Positions 1,567 through 21,005 of a DNA stretch of 21,005 nucleotides are shown one piece after another. Origin of the DNA: a virus. Each line of letters opens with the position of its first letter. Position 1 is the stretch's first letter. The stretch spans positions 1,892-22,896 of the IMG/VR virus record IMGVR_UViG_3300030104_001960. One strand, 5' to 3'. Position numbers and translations under genes: made by a program. A model generated the notes under the pieces. It ran no database searches, was not told the DNA's origin, and saw only the letters and a program-made list of their open reading frames with translations.

Positions 1567-3684
1567 TTATTTTGCCTCTAAGGCTTTTACTTTTGCTGAT
1601 AGTTCTTTAACGGCTTGAACAAGCATTGGAACAAGTTTTCCATAAGAAGCTTCTAATCTATCTGGATTTTCATCCATTACTAAACCAAGGTAATCAGCAT
1701 CATTATCTTTTTGTATTTGCTGGAAGTCTTGTGCTATAAAACCAGCTTCATAAGTACCATCTTTACCATTACCATCCCTTGTCTCCCATTTGAATTTAAC
1801 AGGATTTAAAGCGTTAATAAAACTTAGACCTAAATCTAAGGTATTGATATCTGTTTTATCTCTTCTATCTGATAAGGAGCTAATAGTTTGAGTATTGCAA
1901 CGTAAAGTAGAGCTTGAAGTATTACCTAAAGTTATCTCGTTATTAACTGTTGATGATGAAGGTGATGTCTGATACCCTACTATAACATTATTATCACCTG
2001 TTGTTAAATCATTTGTTCCAGTGTATCCAGCGTTATAACCTACACAAGTATTGTTTGCACCAGTAGTAATTTCCATGCCTGCCTGTCCACCTAGACAGGT
2101 GTTTTTTTCAGTAGTTGTAATTTTTTGACCAGCAAAATGACCAAAACATGCGTTGGCACCACCAGTAGTTATATCATTACCTGCATATCTTCCTACTAAA
2201 GTATTGTTACTTGCTGTAGTCGAGTTCTCACCAGCTACAGTACCAATAGCAACATTATTCTCACCACTAGTACATTTCTTTAATGCACCGTTTCCCATAG
2301 CTACATTATCAGCACCAGTAACAGTACCTTCCTTCATACACCAAGGTCCGATAGCTATGTTACGGCTTCCAGTATTAACACCATCTCTATAAGATTGATA
2401 ACCCACCGTTACGTTATAACTACCTGTAGAAACTAAACGAGAACTTTCATATCCAACAGCGGTATTATAGTTACCAGTAGTCATCTCAAAGAAATTCTGC
2501 CAACCTAAACATGAGTTTCCTGTTGCCGTTCTTGATGCTGCTGCCGTTCCACCACCATAAATACTTTGAGGTCCAATCAATACATTATAACCAGCACTAC
2601 CTCCAAGTGTTGCTCCACAATAAGATCCTAAAAATATATTATTCTGACCAGTTACAGAACTACCACCTGCGTTTGATCCTATGGCTATACTATGTGATCC
2701 AGAAGTAAGTGCATCTAGAGATTGTTGACCGATAGCAATATTATTATTACCAGAGGTTATATTAAAACCAGCGTAATATCCGATACCAACGTTGTGTTGA
2801 CCTGATGTAACTTGAAATAAGGAAGACTCTCCCAATGCAGAGTTATAAGTTCCCGAAGTCAGACTTCTCATACTCATATACCCTACAGCTGTATTATCAG
2901 TTCCTGTAGCTCCAGATGAAGCCCCCATAATAGCCTCCGGTCCTATAGCTGTATTAGCTCCACCTGTCGTATTATAGAGTGCCTTATAACCTATTGCTGT
3001 TGACATATTTGATGTCGTGTATTTGTAACCAGCTTCTGAACCTATAAAAGTATTGTGATCACCTGTTGTTAGTTCGTAACCTGCTAAATTACCAATTAAA
3101 GTATTGCGATCTGCTCCAGAGGCTAAGTTATAGCCACTAAAACCATAGTTCTCACCACCATGTATGTTTGTGCCAAAACTTTTTACAAGACCAGTAGGTA
3201 AATTAGTTAGTGAACTACCATCACCTTCAAAATAAGTTGCATATAACTTTTGAGTAGTTTTATTAAACCTTAAAGCCCACTCCCCACCAAAACTACCATT
3301 ATCATTAAATTGTACGGTCGTACTACTACCATCAGGACTGGCAGAAGCATCAGCCCACGTCAACCCACCTGTGTTACCAGACTGAGCAGATAAGAACTGA
3401 CCATTAGTAGGTGAATTAGATACTTTTAAATTAGCTTCATCAACTATGTTATCTGCTATAACAGTTGCACCATCACCAGTAGATGTTACTTCTCCAGAGT
3501 GATTGGGGTGTGTATATCCAGATGGTATATCTGATTCTTTAGCTAAAGGTGTACCTCCAGCTGTACTGCCATCATGTACAACAAGTGTATCTTTCGTTGT
3601 ATCTACAGTGACTTCGCCTTCTGCACCAGTGAAGCTACTGTGTTGTGAGGTTGTACCTCTTCTTAATTTTAATTGTTTAGCCAT
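1567..3684 (-). CDS. Second fibre/adhesin: YadA-head-like repeats plus S74 intramolecular chaperone
   Basis: A 705-residue fibre. Residues 1-50 are the LRRGTTSQHSSFTGAEGEV domain seen at the start of many cyanophage fibres. Residues about 193-573 hold some 22 copies of a roughly 17-residue repeat (NTAIGYxAGxxxTTGxx), the pattern of YadA/trimeric-autotransporter head domains, which fold as left-handed beta-helices and bind surfaces. Residues about 603-700 are a peptidase S74 (endosialidase-type) intramolecular chaperone: SLSDRRDKTDI with the expected self-cleavage before or at Ser605, then FINALNPVKFKWE, EAGFIAQDFQ and a final coiled coil (VQAVKELSAKVKALEAK). S74 domains assemble trimers and then cut themselves off. 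Position right after the gp17-like fibre suggests it attaches to that fibre as the distal receptor-binding part. Confidence 0.93.
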   Translation of the reverse strand: MAKQLKLRRGTTSQHSSFTGAEGEVTVDTTKDTLVVHDGSTAGGTPLAKESDIPSGYTHPNHSGEVTSTGDGATVIADNIVDEANLKVSNSPTNGQFLSAQSGNTGGLTWADASASPDGSSTTVQFNDNGSFGGEWALRFNKTTQKLYATYFEGDGSSLTNLPTGLVKSFGTNIHGGENYGFSGYNLASGADRNTLIGNLAGYELTTGDHNTFIGSEAGYKYTTSNMSTAIGYKALYNTTGGANTAIGPEAIMGASSGATGTDNTAVGYMSMRSLTSGTYNSALGESSLFQVTSGQHNVGIGYYAGFNITSGNNNIAIGQQSLDALTSGSHSIAIGSNAGGSSVTGQNNIFLGSYCGATLGGSAGYNVLIGPQSIYGGGTAAASRTATGNSCLGWQNFFEMTTGNYNTAVGYESSRLVSTGSYNVTVGYQSYRDGVNTGSRNIAIGPWCMKEGTVTGADNVAMGNGALKKCTSGENNVAIGTVAGENSTTASNNTLVGRYAGNDITTGGANACFGHFAGQKITTTEKNTCLGGQAGMEITTGANNTCVGYNAGYTGTNDLTTGDNNVIVGYQTSPSSSTVNNEITLGNTSSSTLRCNTQTISSLSDRRDKTDINTLDLGLSFINALNPVKFKWETRDGNGKDGTYEAGFIAQDFQQIQKDNDADYLGLVMDENPDRLEASYGKLVPMLVQAVKELSAKVKALEAK
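1966..3108 (-). repeat. About 22 YadA-head-like repeats within the second fibre gene
   Basis: This segment codes for consecutive units of about 51 bases with consensus N-x-x-hydrophobic-G-x-x-A/S-G, then a turn rich in Thr, Ser and Gly. Unit length varies from roughly 15 to 25 residues, unlike the rigid decapeptides of the neighbouring fibre, and DNA identity between units is lower. Four units contain cysteines near the repeat core (around residues 356, 392, 513 and 530-547). Confidence 0.85.
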
Positions 3685-3687
3685 GGT

Positions 3688-5901
3688 TTAAAGTGTTCCG
3701 AAGTCGATTTGTAAATTATTTCCACTGACAGTTCCTACTTCAGTGAGGTTTTTATCATTGCAATCTAGGTGTCCTCCTAGCTCTGGAGTCGTATCAGCTA
3801 CTACGTCTGTTAGACCACTAACAATTCCTGAGAATGCACTGCCTGTATAGTATTTAAGTATGTTATTAATACCGTCATACCATAAGTCTCCTGCTGATGG
3901 ACTGCCTGGAGATGAGTTAGAAATAGTGTATTCATTAGCGTAACGGTTAACGTCAGCTATTGAACCTGCAACTGTATTGATATTAGAGTTAGCACCAGCA
4001 ACAGTATTTATATTTGTATTGTTACCAGCTACCGTATTTATATTGGTATTGTTACTTGCAACTGTATTGATATTTGAGTTATTACCAGCAACAGTAGCAA
4101 TGTTTGCATTAGCTGCAGCTACAGTAGATATGTTTGAGTTAGCTGCTGCTACAATATTTATATTAGTGTTATTACTATTAACAGCATTGATATTCGTTGC
4201 ATTACCTGCAACTGCATTGATGTTAGTACTATTACCAGCTACCGATGTTATGTTGCTAGATATACCAGCTACAGTAGAAATGTTGCTAGACATACCAGCT
4301 ACTGTATTAACGTTAGCTATATCATCAGCAACCGTACTTATGTCACCACCTGTACCTGTTGCTATATTCTCTGTTACGAGACCTAAATCATTAGAATAGG
4401 TAATATCACCAGAGACAATAGCTATATCAGTTAATTGAGATTGATTTGGACTTGTAGATGAGAAACCATCACCTGATGATGAATCATAAACCATCATCAC
4501 CTTATTAGATGATGAGTCAAACCATAGGTCTCCATTCTGCAATGCAGTACTATCTGCTCTTGCTGTAGGAGCTGAAGTGCTTATCTGATAGACATCAGAG
4601 AAGTTATTTATATCAGCAACATTAGTAGCTGTAGTACTGATAGCACTGGCAATACCAGCAACTGTAGTTAACTCAGTAGCTTTAGGTGTAAGTCTATGGA
4701 ATGTATAAGTATTAAGTGTAGATGTTGTCTCTACAATCATTCCAAAGGTAGATGAATATGTTGTGCTATTAGCTAAACCAGTAATGGTGACTGTTGAGTT
4801 ACCGACAGTGCCGTTAGTAATTGTCGCAACTCCAGATCCATTGGAGGTAACGTTTGCGCTGAGAGCTTTAATAGATACAAGAGTTCCAGTGCCGTTATTA
4901 ACGTCAGGGTTAGCGTTAGGAAAAGATGTTTCATTATCTATGGGTACAAAACCGCCTACGTCATCAACAAGATCAACAATTCGTGCATCAATAGCTGCTG
5001 TAGTAGCAATCTTATTATCAGCTGCAGCCCAAGTCTCACCTGATTGGATTTCACCTAAGCTGCCTAACTTATAGAAGTTAGCGTCAACCTCAGTTTCCGT
5101 ATAATATCTATTATCTAATTGACCAGCATTTAGCTCTGTCTCCGTATAATACCTACCATCTAGATCCGTAGATCCAACAGCAGTTACGTGACCCTGAGCA
5201 CTGACAGTAATATCCTGTAAGACATTACCATTGCTATTATTAACTGTTGAGTTAGCTCCAGTAACGTTGTGGTTGATCGTAACCTGACCACTTGACGTAC
5301 TCTTAGATAAATCAGTACCAGCCAGCACATCAGTACCTAAAGCTATATCAACCTTGTTATCTATACGTGCATCTATTGCACCTGATGTAGCGATAGTTGT
5401 ATTGTTACCTGTCCAAGTTTCTGAACTTGTATAGGTTTCTGTTCCTGTATCCCATGTATTAGTATCTACATAGGTTTTATTAACTCCATCAGTACCTGCT
5501 GTAGGAGTTCCAACATTGGTTAGTTTGTTATTAGCTACATCAAAGTCTGTCTGCATCGGTGTACCACCTAATGCAGTTAATGCGTTATTATCAATCTCTT
5601 GAGCTGTATATAATATCTGGTCAAAGTCATTATTCAGGTCTTCCGCTTTGATAGCAGAACCAGGGTAAAACGTTGCCTTCTTGGAGTCATTGTTTGTATC
5701 CCTATAAATGATCACACTAGCTCCATTAGCAGGAGCTGTGTTCATCTGTACCGTTGTTGCGTTGGCTAAAGAGTATGCAGTTGTTGCTTGATCAGTACCG
5801 TTAATTTTTACCTTAACGTCTGTAGTAGCTAAATATGGAAATGTAAATGAAAAAAGAACGGTTGATCCGTTCCCTGTAAAGTTATTTTGTGTGACAGCCA
5901 T
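3688..5901 (-). CDS. Tail fibre protein with T7 gp17-type attachment domain
   Basis: A 737-residue tail fibre. Residues 1 to about 110 are the T7 gp17 N-terminal attachment domain, which docks fibres on the tail nozzle (VLFSFTFPYLATTDVKVKI, then VIIYRDTNND and the DLNNDFDQILYTAQEID helix). Residues about 122-145 carry the common fibre motif NKLTNVGTPTAGTDGVNKTYVD. The middle has short repeated units (YYTETELNAGQLDNRYYTETE; AAIDARI) typical of trimeric shafts. Residues 521-650 are 13 decapeptide repeats, flanked by two copies of a GDLWFD/GDLWYD module (about 455-470 and 668-690). The C-terminus (SGNNLQIDFGTL) is short and has no clear receptor domain, so receptor binding may rest with the following gene. 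Its stop precedes the next fibre's ATG by three bases. Confidence 0.93.
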   Translation of the reverse strand: MAVTQNNFTGNGSTVLFSFTFPYLATTDVKVKINGTDQATTAYSLANATTVQMNTAPANGASVIIYRDTNNDSKKATFYPGSAIKAEDLNNDFDQILYTAQEIDNNALTALGGTPMQTDFDVANNKLTNVGTPTAGTDGVNKTYVDTNTWDTGTETYTSSETWTGNNTTIATSGAIDARIDNKVDIALGTDVLAGTDLSKSTSSGQVTINHNVTGANSTVNNSNGNVLQDITVSAQGHVTAVGSTDLDGRYYTETELNAGQLDNRYYTETEVDANFYKLGSLGEIQSGETWAAADNKIATTAAIDARIVDLVDDVGGFVPIDNETSFPNANPDVNNGTGTLVSIKALSANVTSNGSGVATITNGTVGNSTVTITGLANSTTYSSTFGMIVETTSTLNTYTFHRLTPKATELTTVAGIASAISTTATNVADINNFSDVYQISTSAPTARADSTALQNGDLWFDSSSNKVMMVYDSSSGDGFSSTSPNQSQLTDIAIVSGDITYSNDLGLVTENIATGTGGDISTVADDIANVNTVAGMSSNISTVAGISSNITSVAGNSTNINAVAGNATNINAVNSNNTNINIVAAANSNISTVAAANANIATVAGNNSNINTVASNNTNINTVAGNNTNINTVAGANSNINTVAGSIADVNRYANEYTISNSSPGSPSAGDLWYDGINNILKYYTGSAFSGIVSGLTDVVADTTPELGGHLDCNDKNLTEVGTVSGNNLQIDFGTL
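3952..4341 (-). repeat. 13 tandem 30-bp repeats coding INTVAGNNTN-like decapeptides
   Basis: Thirteen uninterrupted 30-base units code for ten-residue repeats with consensus I-N/S-T-V-A-G-N-N-T/S-N. Hydrophobic residues are fixed at positions 1 and 4 and a small residue at position 5. Units 10 to 13 (nearest the gene's 3' end) are closest to each other, those at the 5' edge (ISTVADDIAN, VNTVAGMSSN) most diverged. The phase is constant over 390 bases with no indel. This regularity suits a trimeric fibre shaft, and the DNA similarity gives a substrate for recombination that would change fibre length. Confidence 0.93.
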
Positions 5902-19488: not shown

Positions 19489-19613
19489 AAGGTAGATAGA
19501 GCTTCTTCTAATGAGATGTCCTCATCGAAAGTCTCTTTCTTTTCCTCTTTGATTTCTGGCTCAGGGGTCAGTGAAGTAACTGAAGCCCTAGCCTGATCGC
19601 TTTGTTGAGACAT
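19485..19613 (-). CDS. Small acidic protein, 42 residues, unknown function
   Basis: A 42-codon ORF whose ATG shares one base with the stop of the barrel-like gene (TAATG) and whose TGA overlaps the next ATG (ATGA). The product is hydrophilic, with a Ser/Gln-rich start and a strongly charged centre (EIKEEKKETFDEDISLEE) that may form a short helix. It has no signal peptide or membrane segment. I do not recognise a family. The double stop/start overlap is the best evidence that it is a real gene, since it would be translated by re-initiation from its neighbour. It lies directly upstream of the capsid leader; a link to capsid assembly is possible but not supported by sequence. Confidence 0.65.
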   Translation of the reverse strand: MSQQSDQARASVTSLTPEPEIKEEKKETFDEDISLEEALSTL

Positions 19614-19975
19614 TAGAAACTATACTTAGCTCCAATTTTTGTTCCATAGTTACGATCCTCATCACCATTAGTGGCTGTAGAGATCTCACCATAAAGTGCA
19701 ATCTTCTCCTTTACTTGAAAAGTTCCACCGAACTTACCAGACAATTCTGTATCAGTACCATCAACATCAGCTACTGCTGTGAGAGATGGACCGCCTTGAA
19801 TGTAATAGCTGAACTTATCTTTTGAACCTTCATAACCGATGTGTAGGTCTACTGTTCTTCCTAGATATTCAGAACCTGTGTAACCATCATTCACTTCAGC
19901 ATTGATATAAGTTCCAGCGAATGCAGGTGCAGACGCTAATGAGGTGGCTGCGAGAGCAAGTGCAATTGTTTTCAT
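19613..19975 (-). CDS. Secreted outer-membrane beta-barrel-like protein
   Basis: A 120-residue protein with a textbook signal peptide: MK, a hydrophobic Ala/Leu stretch and an AFA cleavage motif at about residue 20. The mature part consists of alternating polar and hydrophobic segments rich in Gly, Tyr, Thr and acidic residues (for example YIQGGPSL, GKFGGTFQV, ALYGEIST). It ends in KYSF, with the terminal Phe typical of proteins inserted by the BAM machinery. I infer a small porin-like or OmpA-like barrel in the host outer membrane; similar short exported proteins occur in cyanophages but I know of no proven role. It starts four bases after the riboswitch-controlled peptide and has no clear ribosome site, suggesting coupled translation. 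Its stop overlaps the next start (TAATG). A virion protein is the main alternative. Confidence 0.8.
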   Translation of the reverse strand: MKTIALALAATSLASAPAFAGTYINAEVNDGYTGSEYLGRTVDLHIGYEGSKDKFSYYIQGGPSLTAVADVDGTDTELSGKFGGTFQVKEKIALYGEISTATNGDEDRNYGTKIGAKYSF

Positions 19976-20119: not shown

Positions 20120-21005
20120 TTAGGCGATTGGTGTGATCTCTTTAGCCGCTAGATCAAGCGGAAAGTTATGTGCGTTTCTTTCGTGCATTACTTCCATACC
20201 TAAGTCAGCCCTGTTAAGAACGTCAGCCCATGTTGGAATAACTCTGCCATTGGTCGCTGTGACGGATTGATTAAAATTGAATCCGTTGAGGTTAAATGCC
20301 ATCGTAGAGATTCCCATGGAGGTAAGCCAGATACAAACCACTGGCCAAGTAGCAAGGAAGAAGTGAAGACTGCGACTATTATTGAAAGAAGCATATTGGA
20401 ATATCAATCTTCCGAAGTAGCCATGTGCGGCTACGATGTTATAGGTTTCATCCTCTTGTCCAAACTTATATCCATAGTTCTGCGATACAAGTCCAGTCGT
20501 CTCCCTAACAAGTGAGGAAGTAACCAGACTTCCATGCATAGCAGCGAATAAAGCTCCACCGAATACCCCTGCAACGCCGAGCATGTGGAAAGGATGCATG
20601 AGGATATTATGTTCTGCCTGAAAGACAAACATAAAATTGAAAGTCCCTGAAATACCAAGAGGCATACCATCACTGAAGCTCCCCTGTCCGAATGGATACA
20701 CGAGGAAGACAGCAAAGGATGCTGCAACTGGTGCTGAATAAGCTACACATATCCATGGTCTCATTCCTAATCTGTAGCTAAGTTCCCACTGCCGTCCCAG
20801 GTAAGCTGAGATACCAATAAGAAAGTGGAAGACGATGAGTTGGTAGGGTCCACCGTTGTATAGCCATTCATCGAGATTGGCTGCTTCCCAGATGGGGTAG
20901 AAGTGTAGTCCGATTGCGTTTGATGACGGGACAATCGCTCCCGATATGATGTTGTTTCCATAGAGTAGTGAGCCAGCTACGGGTTCACGAATACCATCTA
21001 TATCA
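20120..21005 (-). CDS. psbA: Photosystem II reaction centre protein D1 (5'-truncated by window edge)
   Basis: Encodes D1, the photosystem II core subunit that carries the water-oxidising cluster and the QB site in the host thylakoid membrane. The frame is open to the window edge; the first complete codon is D59 in standard D1 numbering. All key residues I checked are present: D61, Y161, D170, E189 and H190, H198, H215, S264, H272, H332, E333, H337, D342 and A344. Position 130 is Gln, as in the low-light D1:1 form of freshwater cyanobacteria. After A344, the mature C-terminus, only eight residues follow (AKEITPIA), so the precursor would be 352 residues rather than about 360. Phage psbA genes replace fast-turning-over host D1 during infection (known for cyanophages). 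It lies upstream of the capsid gene, where T7-like cyanophages usually carry it. Identification is certain; the missing 58 N-terminal residues lie outside the window. Confidence 0.98.

Follow-up and report, generated by a model that had tools for sequence, protein, structure and literature searches.

Putative receptor-binding tip protein with an Mtd_N plug, a 17-residue-repeat solenoid and an S74 domain behind the T7-type tail fibre of an apparent cyanopodovirus

The window analysed here is a stretch of 21,005 nucleotides (positions 1,892 to 22,896 of IMG/VR virus record IMGVR_UViG_3300030104_001960) and covers most of the 22,896-base record. Read inward from psbA at the right end, Pfam assigned a Gp10A-like major capsid protein, the tail tube, the nozzle and a T7-type tail fibre; psbA and the capsid, tail and fibre genes all lie on the minus strand. 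The virus seems to be of the T7-like cyanopodovirus type, infecting ocean cyanobacteria. The psbA (photosystem II D1) coding piece (20120-21004, minus strand) is open at its right end and has its best phage match in Cyanophage NATL2A-133. Between it and the capsid gene sits an ORF (19613-19975, minus strand) matched by Pfam Phage_OMP with 131.3 bits, a cyanophage outer-membrane-protein-like beta barrel. In the part of the record to the left of the window, an ORF (L162:391-720, minus strand) with an HNH-like CxxC...CxxC pattern was noted by eye. The fibre region contains the following features:

1567..3684, minus strand: P0001, putative distal receptor-binding tip protein (complete ORF, 705 aa, ATG start)
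3541..3684, minus strand: plug, Mtd_N-type N-terminal domain of P0001, residues 1-48 (Pfam, phmmer to Mtd 1yu0-1yu4, alignment)
3130..3519, minus strand: linker, residues 56-185, starting YTHPNHSGEVTSTGDG; runs on from the shaft in one-piece fibres
1939..3105, minus strand: 17-residue repeats, about 22 in number (residues 194-582), modelled as a left-handed beta solenoid with YadA-type heads as nearest folds
1570..1872, minus strand: S74 intramolecular chaperone/autoprotease, residues 605-705 (Pfam, dyad, profile and fold matches)
1870-1872, minus strand: Ser605 codon
1855-1857, minus strand: Lys610 codon
3688..5901, minus strand: P0002, T7 gp17-type fibre shaft, 737 aa, directly upstream of P0001 in transcription
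5458..5886, minus strand: virion anchor domain of P0002, Phage_T7_tail, residues 6-148 (Pfam and fold)
3691..3705, minus strand: latch DFGTL, C-terminal end of P0002 (..NNLQIDFGTL-stop)
3682..3690, minus strand: junction TAA ACC ATG (shaft stop, 3-nt spacer, tip start)

A preliminary description of this DNA had placed a repeat and S74 protein at 1567-3684, and this was confirmed for the minus-strand ORF of P0001, which consists of four parts: Mtd_N, linker, long repeat region and Peptidase_S74. Its domain reading held for the repeats and S74 and overlooked the N-terminal Mtd_N (PF18454), which was matched at residues 6-41 with 56.7 bits (Pfam gathering cut-off 26.3). The significant phmmer match to Mtd (1yu0-1yu4) is limited to residues 4-88, and the C-type lectin domain of Mtd was not matched in P0001. 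A search of NCBIfam gave no match for P0001 or P0002. In the predicted model of P0001, residues 1-180 mostly have a pLDDT below 60, and the model is therefore silent on docking.

The C-terminal domain was assigned by Pfam Peptidase_S74 (residues 605-660; 48.6 bits, gathering cut-off 22), with the serine exactly where the preliminary description had put it. A Ser-Lys dyad with a spacing of five stands at the domain start, and Ser605, Asp606 and Lys610 are invariant in 23/23 and in 15/15 aligned relatives. Phage endosialidases and MYRF also use Ser and Lys as catalytic dyad, with a spacing of five in MYRF (S578/K583), according to PMC3742443. Among the PDB profile matches are MYRF and a chaperone of a phage neck appendage; in a Foldseek search with the long P0001 model, the best four rows were S74/ICA structures at probability 1.00, but with E values of 0.055 to 0.14. 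Pfam match and dyad spacing are common to P0001 and endosialidase-type S74/ICA proteins (PDB 3gw6, 3gud, MYRF 7dc3), which also supply the best Foldseek rows; in P0001 the domain comes after a 17-residue-repeat solenoid, not after an endosialidase or a transcription factor. The claim of a self-cleaving chaperone is thereby supported at the level of sequence, by the Pfam match and the Ser605/Lys610 dyad, and by analogy P0001 would cut itself before Ser605, leaving about 604 residues. A count of S-D-x-x-x-K in the tips was set aside as confounded by an unrelated SDLFLK string.

The repeat region has a clear period. The lag-17 self-identity of P0001 is 0.281, whereas 500 shuffled versions reached at most 0.151 at any lag; 20 repeat units exceed the shuffle-derived threshold and two degenerate units (residues 349 and 566) lie in register, so that the earlier count of about 22 was borne out. 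The P0001 model reaches a 10-residue mean pLDDT of 65-91 at residues 191-340 and 441-590 and is poor in the other repeats. When this model was compared by using VIA-align, the top eight rows were trimeric autotransporter heads (Z 14.1-15.2), among them BpaC (7o23; Z 15.2, rmsd 10.8, 302 residues), UspA1 (3pr7; Z 15.2, rmsd 3.0, 193 residues), YadA (1p9h; Z 14.7, rmsd 2.5, 145 residues) and EibD (2xqh; Z 14.1, rmsd 2.2, 123 residues). The left-handed helices of the acyltransferases GlmU/LpxD come next, from Z 13.6; because this lies so near the 15.2 of the best adhesin head, the fold class of the repeats is no proof of adhesion. By sequence, EibD gave a marginal match to P0001 (E 0.011).

Membership of the YadA_head family found no support by sequence: Pfam YadA_head did not match P0001 up to an E value of 10 (the HMMER filters drop weak matches), and a six-sequence repeat profile searched against the PDB found no adhesin, its sole match being chain 7ar9_z (named CA3; E 0.049). 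YadA repeats have a period of about 14-15. YadA-type heads (YadA, BpaC, UspA1, EibD) are the best fold matches of the P0001 repeats, whereas P0001 has a period of 17 and showed neither a Pfam YadA_head match nor a YadA membrane anchor. P0001 as a trimeric autotransporter (type Vc secretion) was rejected as well, since its C-terminus is S74 and Pfam gave Mtd_N and S74 only, with no YadA-type C-terminal membrane anchor. What stands of the proposed "YadA-like adhesin" is the fold resemblance and not the sequence match; judged from the model, the solenoid resembles a YadA-type head and may function likewise, family membership not being established. The viral fold library contains comparable repeat and S74 proteins from T4-like cyanophages and from giant viruses, and the architecture of repeats plus S74 tip is therefore widespread.

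The neighbouring fibre had been described as gp17-like, and P0002 bears this out. Phage_T7_tail (PF03906) was matched with 64.9 bits (Pfam cut-off 25.2), phrog_1640 with 8.4e-10, and in the VIA fold comparison, which tested mainly residues 1-111, the best row for the model up to residue 111 was the resolved N-terminus of gp28 of cyanophage P-SCSP1u (8i4m; Z 12.2, rmsd 2.5, 110 residues). The mean pLDDT of the whole P0002 model is 51.8, and nothing is claimed for the fold of its middle and C-terminal parts for this reason. The view that P0002 is without a receptor tip of its own is accordingly supported by the comparative loci described below and gains no fold proof from the poor model.

The stop of P0002 and the start of P0001 are in frame with one codon between them. 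This arrangement, together with the existence of one-piece relatives, might indicate that shaft and tip are made as one protein by stop-codon readthrough, or that they are a recently broken single gene. Yet the junction is in frame in only 11/37 deduplicated plug loci; readthrough was rejected, most homologous junctions being out of frame. As for a broken gene, the new N-terminus carries a conserved plug that the one-piece forms do not have, so the split form is not merely a broken one. Taken together, we regard these two accounts as extremely unlikely.

To place the P0002/P0001 pair among its relatives, a first set of loci was assembled from viral contigs (80/175 and 80/85 relatives of the two proteins taken in). 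Fibre ORFs entered the count if their 3' end was complete and the contig left space for a following gene, which gave 72 rows, or 52 after removal of those at least 90% identical over the last 100 residues; the latch was defined in this count as DFG followed by one to three residues at the fibre C-terminus. Of the 52 deduplicated loci, 36 had latch and plug together and 15 had neither, while the plug stood alone in one and the latch in none (Fisher p 3.6e-12); before deduplication the figures were 54, 17, 1 and 0, respectively. A stricter first latch pattern (both 17, plug only 20, neither 15) was dropped because it missed LTLDFG endings. Looked at from the other side, this set contains 1400 complete ORFs no shorter than 100 aa, of which 56 end in the latch. 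A plug was detected next to 54 of these; in the remaining two cases the contig breaks off there, but a plug was visible on translation. Eight further cyanopodovirus isolates (8/183 records) showed neither a latch nor a plug in the next gene, which is consistent with a latch-plug rule.

The C-terminal D-F-G-T/S-L/I could conceivably be a by-product of the ribosome-binding site of the next gene or of translational coupling: in most loci the two genes overlap or abut (offset -1 in 25/37 and 0 in 10/37 deduplicated loci) and a GGN codon lies at a possible Shine-Dalgarno position. Against this, the motif is kept at gaps of 15, 17 and 49 nt, and of 46 nt in L028; its codons are used synonymously (n=78: GAC 46, GAT 31; GGA 43, GGT 19, GGG 13, GGC 3), and it occurs in 0/15 of the fibre homologues without a plug. 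As latch codons vary and latch-to-plug gene gaps range from -4 to +49 nt, a mere ribosome-binding site is disfavoured, and we consider this origin of the motif very unlikely.

Three relatives (L084, L085 and L151; L085 and L032 are the same contig) are of one piece: the shaft runs through a THPNH linker into S74 within one ORF, with neither plug nor latch. Plug and latch thus belong to fibres made in two pieces, which is what one would expect if they form a joint. Because these relatives join shaft and tip in one polypeptide, P0001 is better seen as a distal segment than as a second fibre. The preliminary description had spoken of a "second fibre"; from many loci the tip does appear to be carried by the gp17-like fibre, while the one-piece relatives speak against a separate one.

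An independent second fibre or spike, attached elsewhere (tail, branching site or capsid), has nevertheless to be weighed, since the end-to-end docking of P0001 on P0002 is something that we infer. The fibre that precedes the plug protein of L118 is latch-less, and S-SSM7, S-CAM3 and Vibrio K437b have Mtd_N proteins without an upstream latch. KP32-type podoviruses (Klebsiella) mount RBP2 on a side branch, according to PMC13082707; there, as in P0002/P0001, an anchored first protein bears a second one with a conserved N-terminal part, but the first protein has an enzymatic domain of its own and holds the second by a branching domain, whereas the attachment in P0002/P0001 appears end-to-end. No T4 gp10-like branching domain was recognised in P0002, the model of which is mostly of low confidence. 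An independent fibre is opposed by the almost constant company of plug and latch in P0002-type fibres, by the fusion of shaft and tip in the three one-piece loci and by the distal position of Mtd on the BPP-1 fibre. On balance this alternative is unlikely, and P0001 is probably a distal tip mounted in series on P0002, with the Mtd_N domain as plug and a C-terminal D-[FLWY]-G-[STG]-aliphatic motif as latch.

In the single plug-only locus, L118 (L118:3-5543), the fibre itself ends in an S74 domain, and the next gene encodes another S74 protein, this one headed by a plug; it is perhaps a double tip.

The tip varies as a module. In comparison with the closest relative, L081, the fibre is 90% and the plug 96% identical, while residues 56-185 fall to 43%, the repeats to 34% and S74 to 40%; it is the contrast between fibre and plug and the repeats that indicates that the tip was swapped as a module. 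The genes after the tip are 50, 92 and 94% identical, and the upstream partial internal core protein 47%. The first of these genes, P0014 (1134-1403, minus strand), lies directly after the tip and has no Pfam match; as it is 50% identical to its L081 counterpart and the next two genes 92 and 94%, the exchanged segment may include it.

The same modularity is seen in 30 complete plug proteins of 225-705 aa. Their plugs could be matched over at least 80% of the length in 435/435 pairs, with a median identity of 83%, and by the last 110 residues the proteins form six unconnected groups (11, 8, 5, 3, 2 and 1 members), the group of eight being the S74 group that includes P0001. Several tip types hence stand behind the same plug. 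The one-piece fibre of isolate P-GSP1 ends in EGESDLFLKNNRSGKKYKFNLTEVS, a string that also ends one class of plug proteins. The many loci and the L081 comparison thus uphold the proposal that the gp17-like fibre carries P0001 as its putative receptor-binding, variable part.

In ten records of isolates that encode an Mtd_N protein, the end of the protein upstream was inspected; it was a latch in 7/10:

S-TIP37: IDFGTL
CRP-3: DFGSI
BPP-1, Bbp9: DLGGIA (directly before mtd)
Pseudomonas phage AH02: NLGGLA
Syntrophomonadaceae phage: DWGSLT
Pelagibacter phage HTVC008M: DLGSVA
Vibrio phage 1.021: DYGSVA

The latch was not found upstream of Mtd_N in the myophages S-SSM7 and S-CAM3 and in Vibrio phage K437b. 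The isolate CRP-3 has the same pair of fibre and plug protein as P0002/P0001. In the Synechococcus T7-like phage S-TIP37 (STIP37_39, STIP37_40) a T7-type fibre ends in NLTIDFGTL and an Mtd_N protein starts 2 nt on; unlike P0001, this tip is of the tail-collar type, ends in PPYYALCYIMKT and has no S74 match.

A second set of loci combined isolates, bacterial genome contigs and viral contigs, the viral part being the best 80 matches. The latch was present in 48/67 deduplicated upstream ORFs (isolates 7/11, genome contigs 4/13, viral contigs 37/43, again from the best 80 matches) and in 0/519 other ORFs that served as control, with the same limit on the viral part. K437b and some of the genome contigs contributed two ORFs each, and for seven plugs on genome contigs there was no ORF within range upstream; the 9/13 genome-contig rows without a latch include near-misses and short, probably spurious ORFs. 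The isolate rows are no independent test of the broader pattern because it was set after the ten isolate sequences; the genome and viral rows come closer to one, the viral rows over-representing cyanophage-like plugs because the best 80 matches were kept. In four loci (L173, L174, L176 and L168) the protein before the plug carries a doubled D-aromatic-G motif near its C-terminus, for example LDYGLVSSSPSSAADYGSIA; this may be a latch in two parts.

Mtd is the classic self-diversifying tropism protein, and the BPP-1 tip decides which cells are infected. As in P0002/P0001, an Mtd_N-headed tip gene stands in BPP-1 directly behind a fibre-like gene with a latch end; the N-terminus of the latter, Bbp9, matches tail and tail-fibre PHROGs, including phrog_1640 at 4.9e-30. 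P0001 differs from BPP-1 Mtd in having a repeat solenoid and S74 instead of the C-type lectin part. According to PMC10743442 and PMC3567102, Mtd is located at the distal end of the BPP-1 tail fibres and is held there presumably through its N-terminal beta-prism. Judged by gene order and domain matches, the BPP-1 fibre/Mtd pair is the closest precedent, and the P0002/P0001 pair appears to be a variant of that arrangement. A description of the latch was not found among the open-licence papers listed, from which absence from print is not claimed, and the word "Bbp9" did not occur in those listed for that name.

From these comparisons the following assembly is proposed. The gp17-type N-terminus of P0002, recognised by sequence and by the fold of its model, would anchor the fibre to the tail, and its DFGTL would dock the Mtd_N domain of P0001, as suggested by their co-occurrence in many loci and the BPP-1 precedent. 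P0001 would trimerise on its C-terminal S74 chaperone, which, given the conserved Ser-Lys dyad, would then cut itself off at Ser605, so that each chain of the remaining trimer has about 604 residues. The 17-residue-repeat solenoid would be the exposed receptor-binding part, and P0001 is likely to be the host-range determinant, as far as its sequence can tell. With plug and latch constant, tips of different kinds can be swapped as whole genes.

Beyond this locus, we lean towards D-[FLWY]-G-[STG]-[LIV] followed by at most two residues as a general docking latch for Mtd_N in podoviruses, a Pelagibacter myophage and others, including BPP-1, by which unrelated tips can be fitted to one shaft; P0001 would in that case be one of such plug-in tips. 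The paired conservation of latch and Mtd_N points to a small, precise and testable interface, the fixing of Mtd being otherwise presumed in PMC10743442. It also shows that marine cyanophages swap putative receptor-binding tips as complete plug-headed genes. For marine phage contigs a practical rule follows, by which a candidate receptor-binding protein is recognised as an Mtd_N gene behind a fibre with D-[FLWY]-G-[STG]-aliphatic at its C-terminus. Plug-headed tip genes can be overlooked because of their labels, the tip gene being annotated as a hypothetical protein in S-TIP37 and as a putative structural protein in CRP-3.
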